Virus record (IMG/VR): IMGVR_UViG_3300030616_000037
Span: 1 to 47,160 of that record
Source: a virus
Length of the DNA: 47,160 nucleotides
Direction: 5' to 3' (one strand)
Made by a program: the position numbers and the translations under genes. Shown piece by piece: positions 16,883-40,887 of this stretch. Every line of letters starts with the position of its first letter. Positions within the stretch are counted from its first letter, which is position 1. The notes under the pieces were generated by a model that was not told the origin of the DNA, ran no database searches, and was given only the letters and a program-made list of their open reading frames with translations.

Positions 16883-17121
16883 TCCACCCCCGTTCCGACG
16901 TCAGAGGCCTTGGCCACCTCGTTCAAGACGGGGTAGACCGCGTACAGCTCGCGGCGGAGTTCCTTGACGTCGTCTTTCAGCTCCGTCTGAGCCTCCTTCA
17001 TCATCTCCAGCCTGACTTGGTTGGCCTCCGCGATCTGGACGCCATCCCAGACGACCTTCCCGATGAAACCGAGAACGCCCAGGATCGCAGCGAGCGCAAC
17101 CTTCTCGAAGTCGAGTCTCAT
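16879..17121 (-). CDS. TM plus coiled-coil protein (spanin- or holin-like)
   Basis: The 80-residue protein has a membrane segment at residues 8-27 (VALAAILGVLGFIGKVVWDG) and a coiled coil at residues 30-65 (LEMMKEAQTELKDDVKELRRELYAVY). One N-terminal membrane helix and a coiled coil is the inner-membrane spanin pattern; small holin-like proteins also look this way. The adjacent lipoprotein could be the outer-membrane partner, but it is much larger than known o-spanins. It overlaps both neighbours by 4 bases. Confidence 0.6.
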   Translation of the reverse strand: MRLDFEKVALAAILGVLGFIGKVVWDGVQIAEANQVRLEMMKEAQTELKDDVKELRRELYAVYPVLNEVAKASDVGTGVE

Positions 17122-18389
17122 CGGTCACCCTCCAGCACAGCCGTGGAGCCCGAGGCCGAGCACCACGTCTTGTAGTGGCCCCGGCAGTCGGTCTGCGCGG
17201 GGTTGCCCCGGTACGGTGGCCAAGCCTGTCCGTTGCAAGTCCACTTCTGGTTGCACAGCTCAGCCTCGCACTTCGGTCGGATGGGGTTTCCGTCACCCCT
17301 GACCGGACAGCCGCCGCGAGGAATGCAGCCGGGAGAGCCGCAGGTGTTCGGAGGCGAGCCCGTCCCCGGCATGCAGCAGTACCCGATCTTGGCGCAGAAG
17401 TTCGGCTGACCCACGGTGATCCACGTCGTATCGAGATGGCTACCCTTCTCGTGCTTCTGGAACTTCATCCGGGTCAGGTCCGGGTGCGGGGGAGGGCAGT
17501 CCTGAGGAGGCGGCGGAGGGGCCCCCTGGCAGGCCTCGCTGTTCGGGTTGAGGATCCATCCGTCCTGCTGTCCGCCCGGGGCCCAGCGGACCTTCTTCCC
17601 TCCGTAGTTGTAGATCTGGTAGTTCTCGTGAGCCTTGCCGTCGCAGAACGAGCCCCGCTTGACGCTGATCTGATCCGTAGCCCCAGGAGGCTCGTCGTCG
17701 TGACGCCCGCAGTTGAGGCCAATCTCGCAGAGCCGATCGCACACGAGAGCCATCCATGGGTCGGGTCCGAAGGTGATCGGGCAGTCGGTACCCACGGCGC
17801 ACCCGCTGAGGTCGGCCATGACGGAGTTGACTACCGAGCCGAAGGTGCCCGGGTTCGTGGTCCCCGTGAAGTCGCTGTTCGGTGCGCCCTGGGGGAAGCC
17901 GCAGTCACTCGGTGGTGGTTCCTGGCAGGGGAGCCAATCCTGGCCCACGTAGCAATCGCAGTGGGAGTCCCCCAGACACTGTGGTTGCGGCAGAGGCGGC
18001 GGGGCCCCGCAGGGCTTCGTCAGAAGCGGACACTCCTCCTCGGCTGGCCAATGCTTCACTGGCCTCTCGGGCGTCGAACACACGACGTCGCCTGCGTCGG
18101 TATTCCAGATGGCACCGCTGAGATCCGGCTCGCAAGCTACGCATTCCCCCTCCTTGCACATCTGCGGATCGTTCATGTCCCGAGGGCAACTTCCAGGGGT
18201 GCAAGGCGCCGGACGGCAAGCCCAACGATCAGGCCCGATCTCCTGGCAGGTGTTTCCCGGGTCGCAGCCCAGGGCCCGACAGTCGAGGGGCGGGATGTTG
18301 CCGTTGCAGCCGATGATCGCTCCGGCCAACATGGCCATGGTGGTGAACGTGGCCACGGTAAGAACAAGACGCTTCACTCTCTGCTTCAT
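17118..18389 (-). CDS. Cysteine-rich lipoprotein
   Basis: I start at MKQRVKRLVL in an ATGA overlap (423 residues). Residues 1-27 are a lipoprotein signal peptide (basic start, hydrophobic core, IIGC lipobox) with Cys28 as lipidated residue. The mature part has about 37 Cys in roughly 396 residues, with many Pro and Gly and short motifs such as LGCDPGNTCQ and CCMPGTG. The Cys must form many disulfides outside the cytoplasm. It sits between the hydrolase and small membrane proteins. A spanin partner, a superinfection-blocking protein or a moron are all possible; none can be chosen from sequence. Confidence 0.72.
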   Translation of the reverse strand: MKQRVKRLVLTVATFTTMAMLAGAIIGCNGNIPPLDCRALGCDPGNTCQEIGPDRWACRPAPCTPGSCPRDMNDPQMCKEGECVACEPDLSGAIWNTDAGDVVCSTPERPVKHWPAEEECPLLTKPCGAPPPLPQPQCLGDSHCDCYVGQDWLPCQEPPPSDCGFPQGAPNSDFTGTTNPGTFGSVVNSVMADLSGCAVGTDCPITFGPDPWMALVCDRLCEIGLNCGRHDDEPPGATDQISVKRGSFCDGKAHENYQIYNYGGKKVRWAPGGQQDGWILNPNSEACQGAPPPPPQDCPPPHPDLTRMKFQKHEKGSHLDTTWITVGQPNFCAKIGYCCMPGTGSPPNTCGSPGCIPRGGCPVRGDGNPIRPKCEAELCNQKWTCNGQAWPPYRGNPAQTDCRGHYKTWCSASGSTAVLEGDR

Positions 18390-19030
18390 GCCGGATGATC
18401 TCCTGGGACGATGCCCCATCCAACGAACTTGAACTCCTCCGGCTTCCCGGCGCAGTAGTCCATGCCCTCGTCAGGGTCCAGCTCGTTCGGATCGTGATCG
18501 TTGAAATGGATGCCGTCTTCCTCCAACCCGTGAGCAATGTGGTTGGAGCAGACGACGCGGACATCTTGGAAGTGAAGCCTCGTGAGCGGAATGCCCGTGA
18601 GCTTCTCCCCCAGGAAGGTCAGTAGCCGCCACCAGCCGTACCCGTTGCCGGTGCGAGAGCGCCAGTCTGCGACGACCCGCTCGACGCCCTCGTCCCCGCT
18701 GTAGTGGCGAGGGCGGAACACGGCGACCGCGTAGCCCTGGTTCTTCTTGTGGGCCTCCCACCAGACGTGCTCTTCGACCTTCCAGAGGGCTTCCGTAGCC
18801 GTAGCCAGGGTCGAGATGCGACCCGCCGGAGGGATGAGGTACCCGGGCTTCGTGATGCCGCCCATGTGGTTGCACCACGACGGCCTCTCGCCCTTTGACT
18901 GCTCGGCCCACCGAATCAGGCGCCCGAGGGGGTTCGTTCCCCTGGTGAAGTAGATGTCCCCAGGCTGCGCGAATGGATAGCCTGGGGCCCTGTCGATGAA
19001 CCGCTGCTTCTCGATCTCTTGAATGCTCAC
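18386..19030 (-). CDS. Papain-like (NlpC/P60 or YiiX-type) hydrolase
   Basis: The 214-residue protein has an N-terminal PGDIYFTRGTNPLGRLIRWAEQSKG segment, then NHMGGI (His), and later VVCSNHIAHGLEEDG near residue 160, where Cys and His would form the catalytic pair. The order (GDI start, His first, Cys later) is that of permuted NlpC/P60 or YiiX-like proteins, which cut amide bonds in peptidoglycan or lipid substrates. No signal peptide is present. It follows the endolysin by overlap, so a second wall-degrading role at lysis is inferred. Confidence 0.65.
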   Translation of the reverse strand: MSIQEIEKQRFIDRAPGYPFAQPGDIYFTRGTNPLGRLIRWAEQSKGERPSWCNHMGGITKPGYLIPPAGRISTLATATEALWKVEEHVWWEAHKKNQGYAVAVFRPRHYSGDEGVERVVADWRSRTGNGYGWWRLLTFLGEKLTGIPLTRLHFQDVRVVCSNHIAHGLEEDGIHFNDHDPNELDPDEGMDYCAGKPEEFKFVGWGIVPGDHPA

Positions 19031-19446
19031 CTGAACCTCCCCCTCTCCATCGCCTGGGCCATGCGCTCGGCGCGGCCCGGGGTCTGCCGAGCCCAGAGGG
19101 AGGCCCTCATCCCTCTCGCGGCTTCAGCGTAGTCTCCACGCTTCACCGCCGCAAGGGTGTTCCTGAAGCGCATGAGACCGCCGATGCCCATCTGGTACGC
19201 CATGGCCGTCAGGATGGTTCTGCGGGTACGGACGAGGCCTCGCCACCAAGGGATGTGCTCGTCGAGCTTCGCCTCGACCTCCTCGATGTCGTTCTTCAGC
19301 ATCAACTCCGCTTCGCCCTCGCGGATCCTCCCGCCGCGCCTCTTGTCCACTAGGCGACCGTAGCCGATAGTCCAGTATCCAAGATGGTCTTGGTACACAT
19401 GGGGAACAAACCCCTCCTCGCGCTTGAGCAGCTCGAAGATCGTCAT
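19027..19446 (-). CDS. Endolysin, T4-lysozyme type (GH24)
   Basis: I start at MTIFELLKREEGF (139 residues). Catalytic residues Glu11, Asp20 and Thr26 fall at the same numbers as in T4 lysozyme (REEGFVPHVYQDHLGYWTIGYG). The rest (MLKNDIEEVEAKL, RRTILTAMAYQMGIGG) also follows the GH24 fold, which cleaves the MurNAc-GlcNAc bond of peptidoglycan. It lacks a signal peptide or SAR anchor, so it would need a holin to reach the wall. It overlaps the preceding and following genes by 4 bases. Confidence 0.92.
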   Translation of the reverse strand: MTIFELLKREEGFVPHVYQDHLGYWTIGYGRLVDKRRGGRIREGEAELMLKNDIEEVEAKLDEHIPWWRGLVRTRRTILTAMAYQMGIGGLMRFRNTLAAVKRGDYAEAARGMRASLWARQTPGRAERMAQAMERGRFR

Positions 19447-19667
19447 AGCTCCCACCTTTGCTTCGACTGGAAGGGGGGCACGTCGCACTTCCAGATCTTC
19501 TCGAAGATCTTCCCCTTGTCGCTGGATCCCACGGGGATGATCTGGGGGTCACCACCTTCGGCGTCCACGTTGAAGCGCACGAGATCGAAGGGGTGCCGCT
19601 TGTACAGGTCGCCGCTGACCCTCACGAGGATCATGGTGAAGCGGGCATCTGAGAGCTGATAGTCCAT
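19443..19667 (-). CDS. 74-residue hypothetical protein before endolysin
   Basis: I start at MDYQLSDA in a TAATG overlap with the preceding stop; a longer frame to 19844 reads through the previous gene. The protein looks like a small beta-rich domain (FTMILVRVSGDLYKR, FDLVRFNVDAEGG). It has one Cys and no signal. It overlaps the endolysin gene by ATGA. Function is unknown; it marks the boundary of the modification and lysis modules. Confidence 0.6.
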   Translation of the reverse strand: MDYQLSDARFTMILVRVSGDLYKRHPFDLVRFNVDAEGGDPQIIPVGSSDKGKIFEKIWKCDVPPFQSKQRWEL

Positions 19668-19999
19668 TACCGGATCCTGCGCTGGACGAGCCAGTTCACC
19701 AAGGACAGGCCTTCGGGGAAGTGCTTCTTCATCCAGGGGGCGAGGCCTCTGGCCAGGACGACCTTCACCGTGTAGGCGAAGACCGAGGGGTAGACCCACT
19801 CGTAGAAGCGGGGCTTGGTGGGCGAGTACTTCGCGCTCCCGCACTCGCAGACCGTACCCCGCCCCACCTCAGCGAGATCGAAGACGTTCCTCTCGTGCTC
19901 TCGCGTGAAGATTCCGCCGCACTTGTAGCAGCGGTAGAAGTCGTGCCGCCTCGGGCCCAAGTCTCCGCAGATCTCGTCGATGTGGCTATACCCAGTCAT
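19667..19999 (-). CDS. Zinc-ribbon protein in the modification cassette
   Basis: The 110-residue protein has CYKC at residues 24-27 and CECG near residue 51, forming one zinc ribbon. A hydrophobic, aromatic segment (FYEWVYPSVFAYTVKVVLARGLAPW) follows, then a basic end. The hydrophobic part is not long enough for a sure membrane helix. It sits between the glycosyltransferase and a 74-residue gene and overlaps both. It may be an accessory subunit for the enzymes or unrelated. Confidence 0.62.
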   Translation of the reverse strand: MTGYSHIDEICGDLGPRRHDFYRCYKCGGIFTREHERNVFDLAEVGRGTVCECGSAKYSPTKPRFYEWVYPSVFAYTVKVVLARGLAPWMKKHFPEGLSLVNWLVQRRIR

Positions 20000-20714
20000 C
20001 CTTCACTCCCCATTGCCGTGCCTTCAGGGGCTCGACGAAGCCCTCTTCCTTGCGACGCTCCTGCGCTTCCTCGAAGTGCGCCTTGCCGATCACCTCAGGT
20101 TCTCCCAGGTGACCCACCTGAACCGCCGTGTTCACGTAGAGCTGGACGCCGACCTTCGAGGCCTGCTGGCAGAAGCTCAGATCTTCACCGAAGCCACCAG
20201 AGTCGCGGTTGTCCGGGAACCACCCTGCCTTCCTGTCGAAATCGGGCGAGTCCGCGATGGCCTGGATGAGCTTGAGGCTCGTCCACACGAAGCCGAACCC
20301 GCAGCCGTCCACCGGGAGGAGGGAGTTCTCCGGGTAGTTGACGTAGTGCTGGAACTTCCCGGCCTCATCGTTGAAGTGATAGAAGACCGGCAGGAAGGTG
20401 CCGCCACGCTGGTGGTAGATGCCGGACACGAAGTCTGCCTCGAACTTGCGCACGGAGTGGAGGAGCTGGGTCACGGCCCCACCGTGAGTGCGGATGTCCG
20501 AGTCCATCCACATGACGCCGTCTGCGAGTCCGGGCTCGACGTAGAGCCTGTTGCAGACGTGGTTCCGCGCAGGGCCATACCCCATGCGATCCGTCGATGT
20601 GTCGCCGGCCCACTCCAGGCCGTGCTTGGCGGAGGTCATGATCTCGACGCGCTGGTCTCTCGCGCATTCGGGATCGACCGGCCCGTACGTGGGGCACGCG
20701 AAGAGCGCTCGCAT
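19986..20714 (-). CDS. GT-A glycosyltransferase
   Basis: I start at MRALFACPTYGP (242 residues), 13 bases after the radical SAM stop, with AAAGGG upstream; a longer start (MMETEQ) would overlap that gene by about 100 bases. The protein has PTYG near residue 8, GPARNH near residue 47, a DxD motif (M70-D71-S-D73) for metal and nucleotide sugar, and GFGEDLSFCQQA late in the domain, with Glu-Asp as in GT2-type inverting enzymes. It would transfer a sugar to a protein or glycan. Sugar and acceptor are unknown. It overlaps the next gene by 14 bases. Confidence 0.85.
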   Translation of the reverse strand: MRALFACPTYGPVDPECARDQRVEIMTSAKHGLEWAGDTSTDRMGYGPARNHVCNRLYVEPGLADGVMWMDSDIRTHGGAVTQLLHSVRKFEADFVSGIYHQRGGTFLPVFYHFNDEAGKFQHYVNYPENSLLPVDGCGFGFVWTSLKLIQAIADSPDFDRKAGWFPDNRDSGGFGEDLSFCQQASKVGVQLYVNTAVQVGHLGEPEVIGKAHFEEAQERRKEEGFVEPLKARQWGVKDDWV

Positions 20715-20727
20715 GCCCTTTAGCTCT

Positions 20728-21552
20728 TCAGATCCGAGTGCAGTCTTTGCAGATGTCGTATCGATCTGCTCTGTTTCCATCATGGTCTTCCCTGAACTTG
20801 AGGTACTTCTCCGCATTGTAGACCTCGCGGATCGTCTGCCGCGAAAGGTCGCCAAACACCTGCTTGCCGGTCGGGTCAAAGCAGCAGGTGGTCACCTTGC
20901 CGTCGAAGAGGACGTAGATCTGACCGAGGGCCCTGCCGCACGTCTCGTTCGGCTTAAACGACCGGAGCGTCCGCTTGTCTCCAGTCCAGTTGCCCTCCAA
21001 GATGCACTGCCCGTAGCCGCCCTTGTCACGCTGCCCCCAGCGAAAGTAGAAGGCCAGCATGTCCCCGTAGCCGAACTCAAGACCGTTCGATACGGCCCTG
21101 ACCTCGACGTGGACGTTATCTCGATTCTCGATAGCGTAGTCGATGTTCTCGCAGACCTGATCGAACTTGCCCTTCAGGCCCATGATCTCTTCGTGCTGGA
21201 CGGCGTTGGCCGCGTTGAGGGAGAAGACAGCCGTTGTCAGGCCGGCTTCCTTGAGGGCGTCGAAGCGCTCCGGGGTCAGGTGGACGCCGTTGGTGAAGAG
21301 GCCGATTGGGGCCCTGGGCATCTTCCGTCGCGCATACCAGACCCTGTCCTCGACGTGAGGATCCAGCATCGGCTCCCCGAGCCCGGTGAGCTGGAGATCC
21401 GTGATGCCCGGAATCTCGGCGGCGTCGTCGATGATCTTCCTGTAGAGACCCATCGTCATCAGCCCGCCCCACCTCTCAGCCTCGGGGTAGACGCAGAAGT
21501 GGCAGCGTGCGTTGCAGGTGCTCGTAGTCTCTAGTTGGAGCTTGACGCTCAT
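20728..21552 (-). CDS. Radical SAM enzyme with SPASM-type C-terminus
   Basis: I start at MSVKLQLETTSTCNARCHFC (274 residues) in an ATGA overlap. C13, C17 and C20 form the CxxxCxxC motif that holds the 4Fe-4S cluster and SAM. LTGLGEPML near residue 57 is the GGEP-like motif. The C-terminal part has ETCGRALGQIYVLFDGKVTTCC, then a FGDL...IREVYN stretch, and CKDC at the end. This is the usual SPASM/twitch pattern for an auxiliary cluster, found in enzymes that modify peptides, proteins or sugars. The substrate cannot be told. Context beside methyltransferase and glycosyltransferase suggests fibre or glycan modification. Confidence 0.88.
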   Translation of the reverse strand: MSVKLQLETTSTCNARCHFCVYPEAERWGGLMTMGLYRKIIDDAAEIPGITDLQLTGLGEPMLDPHVEDRVWYARRKMPRAPIGLFTNGVHLTPERFDALKEAGLTTAVFSLNAANAVQHEEIMGLKGKFDQVCENIDYAIENRDNVHVEVRAVSNGLEFGYGDMLAFYFRWGQRDKGGYGQCILEGNWTGDKRTLRSFKPNETCGRALGQIYVLFDGKVTTCCFDPTGKQVFGDLSRQTIREVYNAEKYLKFREDHDGNRADRYDICKDCTRI

Positions 21553-22088
21553 GTCTTCTGAAGCCCGAAAATGTAGATCCCCGAGCCAGGGTAGTCGTTG
21601 AGGACCAAGCTCCACCAGCACGGATCCACGTACTCGCCGTAGTCGGACGCGGCGTTCTTACCCAGGTCGGAGTACAGCTCCCGTGTCAGGAAGCTGAGCG
21701 TGCGGCCCGTGATTACCCGAGTGTGACCCGGGTCATCCCAGTCCCAGTCGCTGCCCTTGGCCGGGACGGTGCCGATGAGGAGACCCCCAGGCCTCAGGAC
21801 TCGCCAGTACTCTCTGAACTCCGCGAAGAAGCCACGGAAGTCGCCCTGAAGGCCGACGTGTTCCAGTACTTCGTACGCATGGATCTCAGAGAATCTCTCA
21901 TCTTCGAATGGCAGACACTCCCCCACTCGAAGCTGATCCAAATCGAAGACGTGGTCCGGCTTCGCCTTCTCATTGAAGTCGAGAGACGTCCACCTGATCT
22001 TGTAGGGGGGAGGGGTTCCTTCGGGAGCGATCTTGCGCTCAAGCGGAGAGTGCCCCGCTCCGAGCATCAGGCAGCGGTAGGGGCCCAT
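21549..22088 (-). CDS. SAM-dependent methyltransferase
   Basis: I start at MGPYRCLMLGAGHS in a TGATG overlap (179 residues); a longer frame to 22202 reads through the previous gene. The class I methyltransferase motifs are present: motif I LMLGAGHSP near residue 8, an acidic LDFNEKAKPDHVFDLDQ at the end of strand 2-3, FSEIHAYEVLEHV near residue 70, and YWRVLRPGGLLIGTVP near residue 93. The EVLEHV and VLRPGG pattern is that of small-molecule, lipid or sugar methyltransferases (UbiE/Methyltransf_11 type) rather than DNA methylases. The substrate is unknown. It overlaps the radical SAM gene by ATGA. Confidence 0.85.
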   Translation of the reverse strand: MGPYRCLMLGAGHSPLERKIAPEGTPPPYKIRWTSLDFNEKAKPDHVFDLDQLRVGECLPFEDERFSEIHAYEVLEHVGLQGDFRGFFAEFREYWRVLRPGGLLIGTVPAKGSDWDWDDPGHTRVITGRTLSFLTRELYSDLGKNAASDYGEYVDPCWWSLVLNDYPGSGIYIFGLQKT

Positions 22089-22264
22089 CACTGATTCGGC
22101 AGATCCTTCGGCCTGCGGATGTAAGTGACGACCGCCTCCTTGAAGTTCTGGCACTGGACGTGGGTCGCGGCTGGCTGGTTCGCGGTCTGGGAGACCTGCC
22201 ACAGGTACTCAACCATCCCGACGAGGCGGTCCTCCTCGGTCATGACCTTCCTCTCGTCTTCCAC
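22088..22264 (-). CDS. 58-residue protein before methyltransferase
   Basis: This gene starts at GTG in a TAGTG overlap with the preceding stop and ends in a TGATG overlap with the methyltransferase start. The product (VEDERKVMTEEDRLVGMVEY..., ending RRPKDLPNQ) is helical and charged with a single Cys. An internal ATG (residue 8) is another possible start. Its tight overlap on both sides argues for a real gene. It could be an accessory or precursor protein for the enzymes that follow. Confidence 0.62.
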   Translation of the reverse strand: MEDERKVMTEEDRLVGMVEYLWQVSQTANQPAATHVQCQNFKEAVVTYIRRPKDLPNQ

Positions 22265-22575
22265 TACGCTGCCCCTCCATCTTCGTACGTTCCGTCGGCA
22301 TCAACCTCAGCCGCTACCGCAGCAGCTTCTTGGTCGGACTCCACCTTCCAGCGCCTATACGACTTGAAGATGAAGAAGTCGAACAGGAGGCCAACCTGCT
22401 CCTTGTCCGGGACTGAGTCAATCTGGTAGATGCCGTCTGCTGTGGTTGCCCCACGGGAGGCAAGCGCGGCCTGAACCCTTGGATGTCCTTCAATCCTCTT
22501 TGCTTCACTTCGAAGCGCTGGAAGAACCTTCGCCGCAAACGCGTTTGGATACGTCCTTGTGAATGTGACGGCCAT
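22264..22575 (-). CDS. Small protein after fibre, possible cassette substrate
   Basis: The 103-residue protein starts MAVTFTRTYPNAFAAKVLP behind GGAGGG and ends in an acidic Gly/Ala tail (DADGTYEDGGAA). It looks alpha/beta with an aromatic stretch (LLFDFFIFKSYRRW). It lies between the fibre and the modification enzymes and overlaps the next gene by one base. Chaperone, adaptor or substrate roles are possible; none can be proven. Confidence 0.6.
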   Translation of the reverse strand: MAVTFTRTYPNAFAAKVLPALRSEAKRIEGHPRVQAALASRGATTADGIYQIDSVPDKEQVGLLFDFFIFKSYRRWKVESDQEAAAVAAEVDADGTYEDGGAA

Positions 22576-22612: not shown

Positions 22613-24964
22613 CTAGACCAACTGGATGTATCCGCTCAGGTACGATCCACTGCTGTCTCTTACTCGTGCGTAGAGACGATTGAGAACCTCGTCCAGCCAA
22701 AACGACACCGATCCATTGAACAGGTAGAAGTTCGCCGGTTGAGAGTTTGGGGTCCCGATCATCACGGGCAGTCCACTTCTGGCAAGGTGAACATAGCCCG
22801 AAGAGTCTGCCATGCGGGACACCGTTCCGTTCTTCAGAGATTCAACGGTGGTCGTTCCATCTCCGAGATAGTGAACAACCTGAGCCACTCCCGTGGTGCT
22901 AGTGTAGCGATGGAATGTGATGTTTGCCGTAGATGCTGCCTGCGGAACGCAGTACAGCTCAACCACGGCGGCTCCAGACGGCCTCTCTCGATAGAGCCTG
23001 AGGGCGGTACCGGAGATCTGAGCACGGGCGAAGTCTGTTGCAGACCCAGCCAGCCTGAGCTGAATCATAGGGGTAGACGCGTCCTCGCTCTGGAAGATGC
23101 TCGACGTCCTGACAATGCCGGTCGTAAAGAAAGCTGCTGTGGCATTCGTCCAGTCGATGTGCTGGTTGGCGACATAGTTCTGGAGCGTGTTGTGATCGAC
23201 CGCATCAGCTCCAGCGCTCGCGTGCCTGGAAGCGTGGTTTGGCAGGTCTGCTGCCTGGAGCGCGGCGAACGCAAACGTGGTAGCGCCAGTGGCTCTAAGG
23301 ACGTGTCCTGTCGTCAGTCCTGTTGCTGTATGCTTTGCCCCTACCAGGGTATGGGACTGAGGCGGCTGATCATCTGCCAGGACCCCGCTGAGTCCGGCCA
23401 CGCTAAGCTGGTCCGACCCTCCATTCTGGTGGGTGGTCGCATGCGCTGACGGAGTCTGTGCGTCGGCCAGGAGCCCGCTCAGACCAGCGACCGAGATCTC
23501 GTCCGCTCCACCATTTTCGTGCGTGGAAGCATGCGCCGTCGGGCTCTGCGCATCCGCGAGTAGGCCAGAAAGACCAGCCACGCTGATCTCATCTGCGCCG
23601 CCATTCTCATGGGTTGAAGCGTGAGCCGATGGAGTGACCGTTGTGCTCGCCAACTTCAGTGGAGTCACCATGCGGGTGTCGTCAGTTCCAGCATCCACCT
23701 CTGCCTGTGTAGCGATCTCGGCCCCACCAACAAGAGACTCTGTGGCCTGGACTGGGTTCTGGGCGTCGGCCAGGACGCCGGAGAGGCCCCCAACACCAAT
23801 CTCGTCTGCTCCTCCGTCCTCGTGCGTCGACGCGTGGGCCAGGGGCGTCTGAGGGTCAGCCAACGTACCGCTCAGCCCCGACAGGTCGATCTCGTCCGCG
23901 CCGCCATTCTCGTGGCTTGCTGCGTGAGCAGCGGGCACTCCTCCAGATGGGGCAGCGAAGGCTCCGTCGGCCCTCAGGAAGTTGGCAGTGCCGCCTCCGC
24001 TCGCAGGCACCATACCAGTCTCGATGGACGTGAAGGCGGCGATCGGATCGCCTCCAGCTCCGAGGTGACTTGCGGCGTGACCAAGAGGCGTCTGGGCGTC
24101 CGCGAGCAAGCCGGAGAGGCCCCCGACATCGATCTCATCCCCACCGCCGTTCTCATGGCTCGCCGCGTGCGAACCCGGCACACCCCCGTCGGGAGATGCA
24201 AAGGCTCCGTCAGCACGGAGGAAGTTCGACGTACCCCCACCGCTGGCTGGGACCACGCCAGTCTCTACGGACGTGAACGTGGAAATAGCGTCAGCACCTC
24301 CACCCAAGTGACTCGCGGCGTGAGCGAGTGGGGTCTGGGCGTCCGCGAGCAACCCCGACAGCCCGCCCACATCGATCTCGTCCCCGCCGCCATTCTCGTG
24401 ATCGGAAGCATGGTCGAGCGGATCCTGCTCGTCAGCGAGGAGTCCGGAGAGGCCGGTGACATCGATCTCGTCGGTGCCACCGTTCTCGTGCGTTGGGGCG
24501 TGAGCGGCCACAGAGCTAGACGATTCACCGACGAGGATCCCATTGCTGTTGTAGATACGCCACAGCGTGGACGGCTCCCACGTCACACGGTAGTTTGGCT
24601 CCAGGCTCACGCGGGCGAGCGTGCGAGCGTTGGTCCCATCGTAGAACTCGAACGTCAGAAGCACGGCTGCGGTGTCGTTGTTGAAGACGGTCCAGTGCTT
24701 CGCCTGTCTCTGGCCAGTCGATGGCGAGGGGATGATGGTGACCGGCGTCGATCCGTTCAGCTCGCCTTCGGTGTTCCCGGAGAGGGGACTGGGCGTCCCG
24801 TCGAGATTCGTCCAAGACGCGAAGAACTCCGGCTGGTTCGTCGCCGGGGCGCCGGCCATAGACACACGAATGACTTCGGTGGCGCCGTCGAGAATCGGGC
24901 CACCGCCCAGCGCTCCGCCAGCACCCGCGCCACTACCACCACCGAGAACTCCGTACTGGGTCAC
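22613..24964 (-). CDS. Tail fibre with tandem HENGG repeats
   Basis: The 783-residue protein has a Gly-rich N-terminus, a beta domain to residue 150, and a repeat region at residues 155-538. After that come NHASRHASAGADAVDH and VANQHIDWTNATA segments, common in phage fibres, and a C-terminal beta domain (residues 590-783) ending LSGYIQLV. The repeat is about 30 residues, with H(x3)HENGG, DEI, and GLSGLLAD. Such repeats build long trimeric shafts, and paired His can bind metal along the axis. The C-terminal domain probably binds the host receptor. It is followed by modification enzymes. Confidence 0.82.
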   Translation of the reverse strand: MTQYGVLGGGSGAGAGGALGGGPILDGATEVIRVSMAGAPATNQPEFFASWTNLDGTPSPLSGNTEGELNGSTPVTIIPSPSTGQRQAKHWTVFNNDTAAVLLTFEFYDGTNARTLARVSLEPNYRVTWEPSTLWRIYNSNGILVGESSSSVAAHAPTHENGGTDEIDVTGLSGLLADEQDPLDHASDHENGGGDEIDVGGLSGLLADAQTPLAHAASHLGGGADAISTFTSVETGVVPASGGGTSNFLRADGAFASPDGGVPGSHAASHENGGGDEIDVGGLSGLLADAQTPLGHAASHLGAGGDPIAAFTSIETGMVPASGGGTANFLRADGAFAAPSGGVPAAHAASHENGGADEIDLSGLSGTLADPQTPLAHASTHEDGGADEIGVGGLSGVLADAQNPVQATESLVGGAEIATQAEVDAGTDDTRMVTPLKLASTTVTPSAHASTHENGGADEISVAGLSGLLADAQSPTAHASTHENGGADEISVAGLSGLLADAQTPSAHATTHQNGGSDQLSVAGLSGVLADDQPPQSHTLVGAKHTATGLTTGHVLRATGATTFAFAALQAADLPNHASRHASAGADAVDHNTLQNYVANQHIDWTNATAAFFTTGIVRTSSIFQSEDASTPMIQLRLAGSATDFARAQISGTALRLYRERPSGAAVVELYCVPQAASTANITFHRYTSTTGVAQVVHYLGDGTTTVESLKNGTVSRMADSSGYVHLARSGLPVMIGTPNSQPANFYLFNGSVSFWLDEVLNRLYARVRDSSGSYLSGYIQLV
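23351..24502 (-). repeat. Tandem 90-base repeats in the fibre gene
   Basis: Eight full units start at residues 155, 185, 266, 347, 377, 448, 478 and 508, each with H(x3)H then ENGG (or a close variant), DEI and GLSGLLAD. Two further units, at 215 and 296, have a longer FTSxETG/LRADGAF form. Residues 185-265 and 266-346 are an 81-residue (243-base) duplication of a larger block. Units differ by silent and coding changes, so the array has been evolving by duplication. Confidence 0.85.
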
Positions 24965-25352: not shown

Positions 25353-25796
25353 TTACAGCGCCCGGAGCAGGATGTCCTTGGTGGTTGCCGCTGGGGTCGT
25401 CGCGGTCGCGAGGCTGGTGCCGTCCGCGAAGTAGACGAAGCCCTCGTTTCCGACCGGGGTCTCCACGGACAGTTCGAGGTAGTTCTGCGCGGCGGTGGCC
25501 TTGAGAACCATGCCCGCAGCCAGGGTGACGTCGGTGGACCCGATCACGGATGCGTCCGTGAAGCGACCGTGGACCTGTACCTTGCCGTAGCCCGAGTCCG
25601 CGATCTGCGTCTCAGCCACGACGCCCCTGAAGAGGGACAGCGTGCCTGCCGCAGCCTTGGAGACACGGACACCGTCGCCCGAGGCGCTGATGTCCCACAC
25701 GCACGGGTAGCCCACAGACAGGGTCTCGCCGGCAACGTTGCGTACGACGGTGAAGACGGCGTCGTCGTCCTCACGCTGGAATGCGTTGAAAATCAT
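25353..25796 (-). CDS. Probable head decoration protein
   Basis: I start at MIFNAFQR (147 residues) behind GGGAGAG; a longer frame to 25832 has no good start. The protein is beta-rich, with repeated short strands (VVRNVAGETLSVGYPCVWDI, KVQVHGRF, MVLKATAAQNYLEL) and a low-complexity Ala/Thr end (ATATTPAATTKDILLRAL). A gene of this size directly after coat, with the same promoter and a terminator behind, is the usual arrangement for a capsid stabilising or decoration protein. The family is not recognised. Confidence 0.6.
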   Translation of the reverse strand: MIFNAFQREDDDAVFTVVRNVAGETLSVGYPCVWDISASGDGVRVSKAAAGTLSLFRGVVAETQIADSGYGKVQVHGRFTDASVIGSTDVTLAAGMVLKATAAQNYLELSVETPVGNEGFVYFADGTSLATATTPAATTKDILLRAL

Positions 25797-25895
25797 CTCA
25801 ACTCTCCCGCCAGGATCAGCCCATGGCCTCACCCGGCATTCGAAGTATCTCCGGGGGACTCAGCCACCATGGCCTCGCCCCCCATCGACGGTTGC
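25797..25895 (-). other. Gap with imperfect direct repeat
   Basis: The 99-base gap between the coat and decoration genes holds two similar pieces, GAGGCCATGG-GCTGA (around 25817-25831) and GAGGCCATGGTGGCTGA (around 25860-25876). No ORF starts there with a good ribosome site. The upstream ATG inside each copy lies in frames that stop soon. The repeat may be chance or a leftover of a duplication. Confidence 0.35.
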
Positions 25896-26960
25896 TTACG
25901 ACGTCGCGTCGTTCGTCATGGCACCCATGACGCCCTGCTTGTCGCGACGAGACACCCAGTGAGCGCCGTACCACTGCACGATCGAGGTCTCACCGGCACC
26001 GTTCGGCGCACGGACGAACTCGCCCGGAGTGAAGTCGGCCCCCCCGTACACGGAAACGCCCATGTACTTGGAGTTCACTGCGTAGACGGTGGACTCGTCA
26101 CCGGCTGCGATGGTCGTGTTGCCGGAGTCCACGCGAGGGATGAACTGGTCGAAGACCAGCGGTGCGCCCGCGATGCGGATCGCCTTCCACGGGAAGTTGA
26201 CTTCCTCGTAGTCGGTGAAGCGCTGGAGGCTGCGAAGCGCGGCGGAGATCTGCTCGTAGCCCAGGATGTCGGCCACGAAGAGGTCCGGGCCCGGTCCTGC
26301 CTGCTTGGAGCAGAGGTTGATGAGGTGATCCAGCTCCTTCAGGATGCCGGCGTAGGTGTTGGACGCCGTGCCCTGCTGGACCTGATTCTGCCACCACGAC
26401 TCGGTGGACTGGTTGATGCCCCCGATGGTGGTCGAGGACGTCGGGTCGTACTTGATCATCAGCGGAATCGGCTCGACGAAGGTCGATCCGTTCACGCTGG
26501 AGGTGCGAGCCGTCTCGATGGACGTGCCGTCGGTGGCACCCTGGCCCTGGAGGAGCCAGCGACCGAAGCGGTCTTCCAGACCCGACATCGCCTGCTCGGT
26601 CTTGCTCTTGAGCAGGTCGATCGCAGCGCCCTTGTTCTGTGCTCGCTCGAAGTCACCGATGGTGATCGAGGATGCGAGACGAGCCCAGTTGAAGAACGCC
26701 GGGGTCTGACCGTCAGTCGGGGTGATGTCCACCTGTCCGACGCCCTCGGCGCCGAACGTGTCCACCGGAGCGAACTCGTACATCAGCGGAACGCGCAGGC
26801 GATCGCCGAGCTGGGAGACGGTCTTCCAGTTGCCGGACTTCTTGTACTTGAAGTAGAACGCGTTGGAAGTCGTGATCTGGTGCTGAATGACCGGACGGAT
26901 CTTGTCCAGCAGGGCGGTCAGCCGCGCATTGTACGTACGGGTCAGGCTGGTTGCGGCCAT
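25896..26960 (-). CDS. Major capsid (coat) protein
   Basis: The 354-residue protein starts MAATSLTRTYNARLTALLDKIRP behind GGAGGG. It has DITPTDGQTPAFFNWA near residue 78, LEDRFGRWLLQGQGATDGT near residue 127, a SWWQNQV segment near residue 188, and an AGAPLVFDQFIPRVDSG strand near residue 273. This layout matches a large group of phage major capsid proteins with the HK97-type fold. It follows the scaffold gene, is served by its own strong promoter, and is followed by a probable decoration gene and a terminator. All this fits the most abundant virion protein. The precise family is not decided. Confidence 0.87.
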   Translation of the reverse strand: MAATSLTRTYNARLTALLDKIRPVIQHQITTSNAFYFKYKKSGNWKTVSQLGDRLRVPLMYEFAPVDTFGAEGVGQVDITPTDGQTPAFFNWARLASSITIGDFERAQNKGAAIDLLKSKTEQAMSGLEDRFGRWLLQGQGATDGTSIETARTSSVNGSTFVEPIPLMIKYDPTSSTTIGGINQSTESWWQNQVQQGTASNTYAGILKELDHLINLCSKQAGPGPDLFVADILGYEQISAALRSLQRFTDYEEVNFPWKAIRIAGAPLVFDQFIPRVDSGNTTIAAGDESTVYAVNSKYMGVSVYGGADFTPGEFVRAPNGAGETSIVQWYGAHWVSRRDKQGVMGAMTNDATS

Positions 26961-36486: not shown

Positions 36487-38976
36487 CTACAAGAAGGAGC
36501 TTAGCAGAGAGGCCAAGAAGACAACGTACCCCCCTCCCTTAGACTTCCATGCTCCTCGCTCTGGGGTCATCTGGAAACGCTTCGGCATGTGCTTGATGGA
36601 GGGAACGGTGATGAGTACGCGGTCCCCCTCAACGATGGCCTTCTCCTTCTTCGGCTTCGCCATCTGCGGGTTCAACCCAGAGGCCGGAAGAGGTCGGCTG
36701 TTCACAATGTACCGGATCACGTCGAGGGCGTGGTCCGGGACGTCCGGGTCACGGTCGTCGCCGTAGATCGGCTTCCCGTCACTCTCTCCGACCTGAAGAC
36801 GCTTCGCGGCCCTGGTCTCCGAGATCGCGTGGTTGCATCCGTGCGGCCAGTCGGGCGACTGCTTGATGAAGTAGAGGTGCGGCGCGTTCGGCTCTCCCGT
36901 GACCGGGTGGCGGTGGTACTTGTCCAGGCGGAGGTACTGCTTCAACCGCGAGCGCGACAGCTCCTCGTTGTTGTCGGCTGGACGCCAGATGAGGGACGTC
37001 TGCTCTTGGATGATCCTCGTGTCACGGTACTCGTCAGCCACTGAGTTGTGAGACATGAGGCCATGCGCGATCAGCGTCTTGGTGCTCGTCTGAAGTCCGA
37101 CCAGCCTGCGAACGCCAAGGTACTCAATCCTCGTGATTGTAGGCCTGTCCATCGCATGGATACGGCCCAGGTCGTCAATCCTGAGCTTGGGCAGCAATCT
37201 CTCGGGACGAATCTGACCGAGCAGTCTGAGCACCTCAGGGCGACGGCTCAGGCAAAGTTGGACGCACGGCTTTCCGGTCTTAGAGGCGGACTCCGACTGT
37301 CTCGACTTCGATGGATGATATCCCCTGACCTCAAGCTCACGTTCCACCCTGGCCAGCATCTCATTTTCAACCTGCGAGAACCCAGCCCTGAAGGTTCGCT
37401 TGCCGTTCTTCTCGTGCTGAGTCAGGAACCCCTCACCGTCGAATGCGGCGGCAAGGTAGCCGGCCCCATGGGACGTGTCGGTTTCCCAGACGTCAGTAGC
37501 CCGGAGCATCCTCTGTCCGACCTTGAGTCTCTTCGTACTTCTCCACAGCCGCCACTGCCCAGTTGGGTTGATCAGCCATTGGTGCCCCTCGGAGCACACG
37601 ATCTCGGAGCCGTCATCCAACGTGATTCGGTAGGACGGAAGGTGGACCTCCCGAACGTCTTCGACTACAGCTTCACGCCAAGCCCGGTCACTAGCCTTGT
37701 ACGCTCGACTTCTGAAGTCTTCCGATGGGTTGCCTTCGTCGAACCCGGCGATGATGTCACCCACAGCCAGGGAATCAACACGGACATGCCTAAGATCTGA
37801 TGTCAGGATAGGAGTCTCAGGGGAGAGGCACCAGCGCTTCGCGTGCTTGTTGTACCCCGTGATGCCGCGAGTCCTGTTGAAGATCGACGGGTCTGCGATG
37901 TTCGTGCGGAACGTGAGCGGCTTCGACAACATCGTGATCGCACGACGGTGGTCGGAGATGTCGAACTCGCCCGACTCCGTGATCCCGGCTTGGTAGTACT
38001 CCTGCCAGATGAAGATGTTGTTCTCGCCGTCCACCGCGTACCAGAGACAGCACGTCGGCGCGGAGTCGCCGTGGTCGAGGCCCCGGCCCAGGTTCATGTT
38101 GTTCTGGATCTGGACCATGAGGTCCGGGTCGTAGTCGAGCAACGAGGACTCGTCGATGCGGAAGAGGTGACCCTTGCTCTTGACCCAGACGCCCTCGACG
38201 AAGCGCTTCCGGTAGTCCTCGTCCTGCTGCATCAGCATCTCGATGTTCTGCTCGCCCGCGAACTTGTTGTCCGTGGTCGGCATGGTCATCGAGCGGTAGC
38301 CGAGAGGCGCGTACTTCTTGTGGAAGGCCGGGGACTCGGGAGAGAACCGCTGCCAGAGCCAGTGCAGCTCGGGGTCGCCGTCCTCGCTCGGGTTCGCGGT
38401 CAGGATGACGTCCATCGGCGGAACGGGGGTTCCGCCCTTGTCCTTCCACGGCCAATCACCTTCGCGCTGGTGCAGGGCCCAGGCGGGAACCTTCGCGCCC
38501 TTCCAACGACCGAGACGACCGAGCAGGATCGTGAACGTCTGCTCCTGCATCTGCTCCGCCTGATCGAGGATGGCCGCGTTGATTTCGAGACCCTTCAGGA
38601 TCGTCGCGCTGTCGGGGCGGTCAAGGTGGTGGAAGATGAAGCTCGACCCGTTCGAGAGGACGACCTCCTTCTCATTCGAGGTCTTCACGAACTCGGGCTT
38701 GATCCACTGGTCGAACGATGGGCGCGTGGTGAGGCGCAGGTCGCTGAATGTCTTCCTCAGCACGGCGACCTTGTAGCCGGGGAACGTCTGGCAGAGCGTG
38801 AGCGCACGAAGGATCGCAGCGGTAGTCTTGCCGCTGTTGAAGCCGCCGATCAAGAGCAGGGGAGACCCTGGCGGAGCCTCGACAGCATCACGCTGCATGT
38901 CGGAGGCCCACGAGAACTGAGCCGGCCCCTCCTCGATCGGCGCAGGAGCCGGCTGATCAACAAACGCTGTGCTCAA
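36487..38976 (-). CDS. terL: Terminase large subunit precursor with intein
   Basis: The 829-residue precursor starts at TTG behind GGAGGGG; the next in-frame ATG is residue 27. The ATPase domain has a Walker A GGFNSGKTT (residues 44-52) and a Walker B-like AAILDQAE (residues 134-141). The nuclease domain has D301 in GLDHGD, D362 in ADPSIF, and D748/D752 near the C-terminus, the RNase H-like metal ligands of terminases. An intein occupies residues 383-644 between KRW and SVADEYR. Removing it leaves about 567 residues, a normal TerL size. The mature protein would pump DNA into the prohead and cut it at headful or at a site. Confidence 0.93.
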   Translation of the reverse strand: MSTAFVDQPAPAPIEEGPAQFSWASDMQRDAVEAPPGSPLLLIGGFNSGKTTAAILRALTLCQTFPGYKVAVLRKTFSDLRLTTRPSFDQWIKPEFVKTSNEKEVVLSNGSSFIFHHLDRPDSATILKGLEINAAILDQAEQMQEQTFTILLGRLGRWKGAKVPAWALHQREGDWPWKDKGGTPVPPMDVILTANPSEDGDPELHWLWQRFSPESPAFHKKYAPLGYRSMTMPTTDNKFAGEQNIEMLMQQDEDYRKRFVEGVWVKSKGHLFRIDESSLLDYDPDLMVQIQNNMNLGRGLDHGDSAPTCCLWYAVDGENNIFIWQEYYQAGITESGEFDISDHRRAITMLSKPLTFRTNIADPSIFNRTRGITGYNKHAKRWCLSPETPILTSDLRHVRVDSLAVGDIIAGFDEGNPSEDFRSRAYKASDRAWREAVVEDVREVHLPSYRITLDDGSEIVCSEGHQWLINPTGQWRLWRSTKRLKVGQRMLRATDVWETDTSHGAGYLAAAFDGEGFLTQHEKNGKRTFRAGFSQVENEMLARVERELEVRGYHPSKSRQSESASKTGKPCVQLCLSRRPEVLRLLGQIRPERLLPKLRIDDLGRIHAMDRPTITRIEYLGVRRLVGLQTSTKTLIAHGLMSHNSVADEYRDTRIIQEQTSLIWRPADNNEELSRSRLKQYLRLDKYHRHPVTGEPNAPHLYFIKQSPDWPHGCNHAISETRAAKRLQVGESDGKPIYGDDRDPDVPDHALDVIRYIVNSRPLPASGLNPQMAKPKKEKAIVEGDRVLITVPSIKHMPKRFQMTPERGAWKSKGGGYVVFLASLLSSFL
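37045..37830 (-). other. Intein with LAGLIDADG endonuclease in terL
   Basis: Residues 383-644 of the terminase form an in-frame intein of 262 residues. Block A is CLSPETPILT with Cys1. The block B-like part has ITLDDGSEIVCSEGHQW with the expected His. A single LAGLIDADG-like helix (GAGYLAAAFDGEG) follows near intein residue 124. The end is TSTKTLIAHGLMSHN followed by extein Ser+1, giving the usual HN|S splice site. All residues needed for splicing (Cys1, block-B His, penultimate His, terminal Asn, Ser+1) are present. The host site lies in the nuclease domain. Confidence 0.92.
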
Positions 38977-39613: not shown

Positions 39614-39853
39614 CTACTTACAGCTTATCCCGTCTCGGGCCTTGATCTTGGCGTACAGCATGTTGATGACCACCTCGGGGACTTCGAGCGGGCCCTGGAG
39701 GCGGAGCCCACCGTTCTCCAGGGGGATCGTCGCAGTGACCGACTTCACGCCGTGCTTGCGAAGAAGAAAAGCGGCCTCCTGAACCAGCTCCTTCGGAGAA
39801 AGAGACATGGCCTGGAGGCCGCTGATCGTGACTGCGTACTGTCGGACTGCCAT
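39614..39853 (-). CDS. Hypothetical protein before terminase
   Basis: The 79-residue protein overlaps the DHH gene by one base and ends 9 bases before the small terminase gene. It looks alpha/beta, with a helix (SPKELVQEAAFLLRKHG) followed by strands (KSVTATIPL, GLRLQGPLEVP). No family is recognised. Confidence 0.6.
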   Translation of the reverse strand: MAVRQYAVTISGLQAMSLSPKELVQEAAFLLRKHGVKSVTATIPLENGGLRLQGPLEVPEVVINMLYAKIKARDGISCK

Positions 39854-40887
39854 CAGGCGTCGATGTCGATTTCGGTGTCTGGCGGGTCCATCTCTTCTTC
39901 GTCGTCTCCCTGCTCAGCCTCGCCAGACTCCCACGGAAGAAAGCAGTCCGCATCGATCTGGAAGCCGGCTGCGCCCGGGTGCCCACCGCCACCGTACTGA
40001 AGTGCGATGTCGGAGACGTCGAACTGCTCCCCTCCAGGCTCGTCCTTGTTGGGCCTGGAGCGCAAGCTGAACTGCCACTGGCCGTGCGCGTTCACGAAGT
40101 AGCCCACGGCGAACGGGGCCTCGGGGTTCTCCTCGGCCAGCTTGCCAACGTGCTCGGAGCAGTTCATGTACGGCGTGTTGATCACCGGCACCTCGAAGCC
40201 TCCGACCTTCCGCCAGATGGCCATGGCCCGGACCTTCTCTCCGAAGGTGTCGATGTAGGCCTGGATGGCCTCGCCCTTCTCGATCACCTTCTGCACGCCC
40301 TGGTCGGTGGACATGAGATCGCCCAGCTCGTCCCAGTGCTCGAAGTCCATCGTCACGGTCGAGATGTACGCGGAGACCTCCTGGGACTTCGGCCACCTCC
40401 AACGCCAGAGATCGCGGTCCTCGATGTAGTCCACGAGGCGCTGCTTCCTCTGCCCGTTGTAGCGAGGCGTGTGGATGCCCGCCTTCTTCCCGGCCTCCTT
40501 CTCCAGCTCGTCGTACGTGATGCCGGCGCCGGAGCGCGACATGTCGAACACGATCTTGTCGGCCTGACGCTGGAGCCCCTCGTCGCGAAGCTCTTCGAGG
40601 ATGCCATCGAGGTTCTTCTCGGCGGTCTTGTGGTGGTCGTACACGGTCGTCCGCAGGGACGGCCTGATGATCTGGTTCTTCATCACCTCGCGATCGAACG
40701 AGACGTCGAGAAGCCAGACCATCCTTCCCTGCGTGGAGGGAAGCTTCTCCGGGTGACCGTAGTCGGCGGCGAAGAAGTCGCAGTTCTCGCCCTTGAACTT
40801 ACGGAAGACCCAGGCGGCGGTGTGGCCATCGAAGCACTTCCCGTGGTAGATGACCAGCGGTCGCTTCTGGTTGTCGTTGAGGGTCAC
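39853..40887 (-). CDS. DHH-family phosphoesterase
   Basis: The 344-residue protein shows the full DHH/DHHA1 pattern: HGKCFDG with D20, LLDVSF with D61, YDHHKT with D84-H85-H86, and a C-terminal GGGGHPGAAGF glycine-rich motif around residue 305. DHH enzymes use manganese to cut small RNAs, cyclic dinucleotides or pAp, or act as single-strand exonucleases (RecJ). The length and order resemble NrnA-like enzymes rather than RecJ. An acidic tail (DDEEEMDPPDTEIDIDA) ends the protein. It lies just upstream of the terminase genes and overlaps both neighbours. Degradation of nanoRNA or of cyclic-nucleotide defence signals are both possible; the sequence does not decide. Confidence 0.85.
   Translation of the reverse strand: MTLNDNQKRPLVIYHGKCFDGHTAAWVFRKFKGENCDFFAADYGHPEKLPSTQGRMVWLLDVSFDREVMKNQIIRPSLRTTVYDHHKTAEKNLDGILEELRDEGLQRQADKIVFDMSRSGAGITYDELEKEAGKKAGIHTPRYNGQRKQRLVDYIEDRDLWRWRWPKSQEVSAYISTVTMDFEHWDELGDLMSTDQGVQKVIEKGEAIQAYIDTFGEKVRAMAIWRKVGGFEVPVINTPYMNCSEHVGKLAEENPEAPFAVGYFVNAHGQWQFSLRSRPNKDEPGGEQFDVSDIALQYGGGGHPGAAGFQIDADCFLPWESGEAEQGDDEEEMDPPDTEIDIDA

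Follow-up and report, generated by a model that had tools for sequence, protein, structure and literature searches.

What do the enzyme genes that stand behind the head genes of certain uncultured phages build, and onto which molecule? The question is raised by a cassette for a methyltransferase, a radical-SAM (rSAM) enzyme, and a glycosyltransferase (GT) in the 47,160-nt virus record IMGVR_UViG_3300030616_000037, the whole of which is called the window below; L numbers (L004, L180, etc.) designate the other loci with which it was compared. We lean toward a swappable cassette for the building and tailoring of a glycan, located in the late capsid operon of uncultured podovirus-like phages, with the virion head as the most likely acceptor. 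Sequence and structure comparison established the fold families, the linkage and fusion of the genes, the exchange of modules, and the constant place of the cassette; from these we infer which reactions take place, in what order, and on which acceptor. The window is probably about half a genome, since the capsid relatives L005 and L010 sit on contigs of 93 and 92 kb, respectively; TerL, the major capsid protein (MCP), and two members of PHROG 399 (a "structural protein" family) were identified among its proteins. The genes named in the first-pass annotation were recovered in the same order and at the same positions, on the minus strand and with mostly overlapping junctions, and together with their neighbors they are as follows.

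25896..26960, minus strand: MCP (PHROG 9953 major head protein, E = 5e-34), the alternative acceptor.
25353..25832, minus strand: gene for the capsid decoration (cement) protein, which is conserved and follows the MCP gene directly in all relatives; candidate acceptor.
22613..24964, minus strand: HENGG-repeat fiber of 783 aa with PHROG tail-fiber matches, a neighbor outside the conserved cassette.
22264..22575, minus strand: 103-aa orphan protein, no relative found, not conserved.
22088..22264, minus strand: 58-aa orphan protein, no relative found, not conserved.
21549..22091, minus strand: SAM-dependent methyltransferase of 180 aa (Pfam Methyltransf_11, 3e-5, above the cut-off).
20728..21552, minus strand: rSAM enzyme of 274 aa with a twitch domain (Pfam Radical_SAM, E = 1e-19; SPASM model, 1e-12).
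19986..20780 (start at 20780 or 20714), minus strand: GT-A glycosyltransferase, recognized by structure model, DxD motif, and STIV A197 match.
19667..19999, minus strand: small Cys-rich (zinc-ribbon-like) protein of 110 aa, the constant companion of the cassette.
19443..19667, minus strand: core phage protein of 74 aa that pairs with lysozyme and is kept before it also in L004.
19027..19446, minus strand: T4-type lysozyme (Pfam Phage_lysozyme, E = 1e-14), the right-hand boundary of the cassette in close relatives.

The nine genes from the fiber gene through the lysozyme gene are tightly coupled. Junctions within the cassette overlap by 1 to 14 nt, apart from that between the rSAM and GT genes, which overlap by 53 nt or are separated by a short gap if the later ATG is used.

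The GT was not recognized by Pfam at the cut-off. Its predicted structure is nevertheless a clear GT-A fold (predicted local distance difference test score [pLDDT], 91.7), and residues D93, D95, D200, and H224, including the metal-binding DxD motif, are invariant over 54 sequences, in agreement with the earlier assignment as a GT-A enzyme. The best match in a PDB profile search was A197 of the archaeal virus STIV (PDB 2C0N; E = 2.5e-13), which was also the top match in Foldseek and superimposes on the GT model with a Z score of 18.6 and a root mean square deviation of 2.3 over 166 residues. After structural realignment A197 was tied for first place with the GT-like region of human LH3, followed by collagen galactosyltransferase and polypeptide GalNAc-transferases, and the fold alone therefore does not fix the acceptor. 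A197 is reported to be essential and has been suggested to be the GT for the STIV major capsid protein, B345 (PMC10551542). Both proteins are single-domain viral GT-A enzymes and the acceptor is putative in both, whereas linkage to an rSAM enzyme and a methyltransferase distinguishes the window GT from its archaeal counterpart.

The rSAM enzyme carries the CX3CX2C motif of the family and a four-cysteine twitch pattern (C...GX4C...CX2C) with a BtrN-like architecture. SPASM-type cysteines had been noted at first reading; SPASM and twitch domains are defined in PMC6231123, and the assignment to the rSAM family stands, whereas a full SPASM domain was rejected. Only the first half of the seven-cysteine motif CX9-15GX4C...CX2CX5CX3C...C is present in all 17 homologues, each of which has the pattern C-X12-13-GX4C...CX2C followed by the end of the protein (about 3 residues beyond CX2C in the window). 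The CX2CX5CX3C part was absent from all 17, which leaves a twitch half-domain with one auxiliary cluster and no second one. In a PDB profile search the closest solved relative was BtrN (E = 4e-25), the twitch rSAM dehydrogenase of butirosin biosynthesis, ahead of MoaA and SkfB. BtrN shares the same four-cysteine twitch pattern in the alignment; the match, however, amounts to only about 90 bits with the middle region unaligned, and the substrate of BtrN is a free aminocyclitol. In an NCBIfam scan, rSAM families were found only below threshold. The rSAM genes of annotated phages (15 Campylobacter phage records) are merely 27% identical to that of the window.

Because a single-sequence scan of viral contigs with the rSAM protein returned no relative, the gene at first seemed to stand alone; the MCP then led to contigs with 75 to 80% MCP identity, and alignments made from them gave 17 rSAM loci and a large number of GT loci. 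Among contigs extending across the relevant positions, the rSAM gene was accompanied by a GT gene in 15/15 contigs (one GT cut by the contig end), by the gene for the Cys-rich protein in 15/15, and by a methyltransferase gene in 14/14, and the decoration gene lay upstream of the cassette in 15/15, so that the GT is linked to capsid genes. The slot is kept in phages with MCPs as little as 31% identical. Independent, unselected cases are fewer than these counts, since L018 to L020 are close to each other and some loci were found via the rSAM enzyme or GT itself; among the eight loci found by MCP only and with enough downstream sequence (the window, L004, L005, L007, L010, L015, L180, and L181), six had the rSAM gene. 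These genes thus occur together rather than mostly apart, as expected of the tailoring set, unlike the usual lone phage GT, that had been proposed from the window alone. The gene orders in the relatives were as follows.

L007, L015, L023, L027, L180: MCP, decoration protein, rSAM enzyme and methyltransferase (in either order), GT, Cys-rich protein, 74-aa protein, lysozyme.
L022, L181: an HNH-type gene before the rSAM gene; L181 stops after the methyltransferase gene.
L019, L020: decoration protein, rSAM enzyme, Cys-rich protein, GT, methyltransferase, then a PHROG 399 gene.
L031: the other of the two methyltransferase types.
L025: decoration protein, PLOD-type GT, methyltransferase, Cys-rich protein, pyruvyltransferase, rSAM enzyme, GT.
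L005: only PLOD-type GT, pyruvyltransferase, and GT.
L004: no enzyme genes between the decoration gene and the gene for the Cys-rich protein.

The position of the Cys-rich protein relative to the GT varies, and the protein is present also in L004. It had been described as a zinc-ribbon protein; the cysteine-rich gene is there, whereas its identity as a zinc ribbon rests on a weak match, with one cysteine missing in one relative.

Identities of MCPs and rSAM enzymes across 12 loci agreed poorly (Spearman coefficient, 0.31). The MCP of L180 is 85% identical to those of L007 and L015, with rSAM enzymes only 43 to 45% identical; compared with L018 to L020, L180 has an rSAM enzyme 55 to 57% identical and an MCP 46% identical. 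This mismatch suggests that cassette modules are replaced at a fixed site behind the capsid genes. Genes resembling HNH endonucleases are located exactly between the decoration and rSAM genes in L022 (754-1299) and L181 (9673-10179), and they might promote exchange of the cassette.

The enzymes are also found joined to each other or exchanged for other sugar enzymes. In L010, methyltransferase and rSAM enzyme occupy one open frame, both domains scoring above the cut-off, and a GT related to that of the window is fused to a methyltransferase on other viral contigs (L034, 6839-8290; L036, 6860-8254). TerL is encoded by the next gene but one after the fusion in L036. An enzyme encoded directly after a GT in the unrelated 158-kb phage L058 shares 45% identity with the window methyltransferase. 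Alternates in the same slot were assigned by Pfam to GT_PLOD (collagen-type protein GT) and PS_pyruv_trans (polysaccharide pyruvyltransferase). The GT_PLOD alternate of L005 and L025 is homologous to mimivirus R699, a collagen glucosyltransferase (PMC9546862), and to the GT domain of human LH3, both of which it matched in the PDB; in contrast to these systems, the phage genes have no hydroxylase partner in the region examined, and the alternate is absent from the window. Since both alternates are sugar enzymes, a peptide-only pathway is unlikely.

Homology thus supports the predicted sugar chemistry well, and tailoring of a glycan by the cassette is likely. The A197-like GT-A enzyme would take its sugar from a nucleotide-sugar donor of the host and transfer it, the twitch rSAM enzyme would then oxidize or epimerize a sugar carbon (compare BtrN acting on an aminocyclitol), and the methyltransferase would cap a hydroxyl; in other phages, the pyruvyltransferase and PLOD-type GT genes occupy this slot, instead or additionally. 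The acceptor would be a virion head protein, with the decoration protein encoded just upstream as first choice and the MCP next, and module swaps would alter the sugar coat of the particle and thereby adsorption or stability.

The decoration gene is conserved between the MCP gene and the cassette (18 sequences). The best matches of its predicted structure (pLDDT, 71) were the phage head decoration proteins of HFTV1, E217, Pam3, T1, and TW1 (Z about 10; about 9 to 11 for the head chains of HFTV1, E217, Pam3, and TW1), so that a decoration-type fold is predicted for the neighbor of the MCP. Capsid glycans have been reported for mycobacteriophages Che8 and Rita, in which phage-encoded GTs are suspected or shown to glycosylate capsid proteins, as summarized in PMC11256854. 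Unlike those of the cassette, the GT genes of the related phage covered by that summary are placed close to the genome's 3' end, and neither an rSAM enzyme nor a pyruvyltransferase is mentioned in it. The fixed slot, the report on A197, the capsid glycans of Che8 and Rita, and the neighbor with a decoration fold make a virion head protein our best guess and, given glycan tailoring, a moderately likely acceptor. Some distant homologues of the GT (L035, L036, L041, and L038) are encoded next to genes for the portal protein or for the large or small terminase subunit.

Other substrates were weighed against this reading. The first-pass annotation had proposed the HENGG-repeat fiber as partner and substrate of the enzymes; in the window its gene is just upstream of the cassette with two small genes between, and L010 and L011 likewise have fiber-type open reading frames (ORFs) ahead of their cassettes. 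These three are, however, the only ones among 17 rSAM contigs with a fiber-like gene beside the cassette, their fibers are unrelated, and in most cassettes the enzymes follow the decoration gene with no intervening fiber gene. Seen from the side of the fiber, none of 61 viral loci with HENGG-type fibers had an rSAM enzyme or a methyltransferase, and a related GT lay within 6 kb in 3/61, two of them near-identical; in 24 relatives' records a single weak fiber match (E = 1e-10) was found, about 16 kb from the GT gene of that record, which had no rSAM gene. Lacking conserved linkage, the fiber is, judged by these counts, beside the cassette by chance, and its modification by the cassette is strongly disfavored and very improbable; a general tail acceptor encoded elsewhere in the genome may be considered instead. 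More improbable still is a pathway for a ribosomally synthesized and posttranslationally modified peptide (RiPP), also raised from the window alone, in which one of the small proteins (103, 58, or 74 residues) would be the precursor modified by the rSAM enzyme. Small ORFs do adjoin the rSAM cassette and a twitch rSAM enzyme can be a RiPP maturase, as for SkfB (PMC6231123), yet comparison with such maturases placed BtrN above SkfB, and the window enzyme consists of the rSAM core from the start, with neither an RRE-sized N-terminal extension nor a peptide-binding RRE domain. The 103- and 58-residue proteins are poor precursor candidates because no relatives were found in family scans or related loci, the 74-residue protein is kept before lysozyme in L004 in the absence of the enzymes and hence is independent of the rSAM enzyme, no conserved small ORF accompanies the rSAM enzyme across loci, and the rSAM gene often directly follows the decoration gene. 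Action on phage DNA or a free small molecule is scarcely more credible: phage GTs are known to act on modified DNA bases, and rSAM enzymes and methyltransferases are generic, but a search of solved structures did not place the window GT near known DNA GTs, and the cassette lies in a late structural operon.

The strongest competitor, which we nevertheless regard as unlikely, is that the enzymes synthesize or alter a glycan of the host surface (lipopolysaccharide, capsule, or S-layer sugar), either to exclude superinfection or to change the cell during lysis. Surface-polysaccharide loci typically hold sets of GT, methyltransferase, pyruvyltransferase, and SPASM- or FkbM-type genes, and two distant bacterial homologues of the rSAM enzyme adjoin a Kdo transferase and an FkbM methyltransferase (L102) or methyltransferases and a sugar-kinase/cytidylyltransferase-type gene (L109). 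Against this, divergent phages keep the cassette at the same place in the operon of head genes, following the decoration gene, Pfam gave no sign of a membrane polyprenyl-phosphate system in the cassette enzymes, and two GT types present are related to protein-glycosylating enzymes. The virion-glycan reading itself meets several objections. Product and acceptor are deduced from sequence and structure comparison; the model of the decoration protein is of moderate quality only, and the Mx9 gene at the same position (gp82) shows no detectable similarity to it. Among twitch and SPASM enzymes, sequence similarity predicts function poorly (PMC6231123), no nucleotide-sugar biosynthesis gene was recognized among the window proteins scanned, and the cassette is dispensable at its site, as L004 has no enzymes there. 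Distant GT homologues also adjoin replication genes (recombinase/helicase; L050 and L079) or other GT genes (L033 and L043), and we lowered the acceptor claim because capsid linkage does not hold throughout the wider GT family. What speaks for glycosylation of the virion is the combination of linkage, methyltransferase-rSAM and GT-methyltransferase fusions, homology to BtrN, GT_PLOD, and PS_pyruv_trans, the precedent of A197, and tight translational coupling with late genes.

The only hint of a host is weak similarity of the MCP to those of phages of Myxococcus, Stenotrophomonas, and others (about 27% identity to the MCP of Myxococcus phage Mx9). Elsewhere in the window, TerL (36490-38976, minus strand) contains an insert of about 260 aa at residues ~383 to 645 that begins with Cys and ends HN|S; it is missing in the L007 homologue, is about 37% identical to a mycobacteriophage stretch annotated as terminase, and is most likely an intein. 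Close to the terminase gene lies one for a DHH phosphoesterase (39853-40887, minus strand; PHROG 4771, E = 4e-68), which is kept in L007. A Cys- and Pro-rich protein of 433 aa with a lipoprotein-like start (17118-18419, minus strand) has no Pfam or PHROG family match and is kept in relatives (54% in L010).

Self-glycosylated particles are known for few phages. Virion glycosylation as such has been described, and the cassette would be a variant of it not described before. In our literature search, no account of a phage uniting rSAM, methyltransferase, pyruvyltransferase, and GT genes in one cassette came up. We tentatively propose, as a possibility a little short of even, a serotype-like particle locus, where glycan-building modules are exchanged at one constant position after the decoration gene, with the rSAM enzyme modifying a virion glycan. 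If true, this would be the first rSAM enzyme shown to modify a virion glycan, and the cassettes would be a source of small, soluble enzymes with which to carry out unusual reactions on sugars. These phages would then vary their surface chemistry as bacteria vary their O-antigens, which would affect how the particle adsorbs, how stable it is, and how it is recognized.

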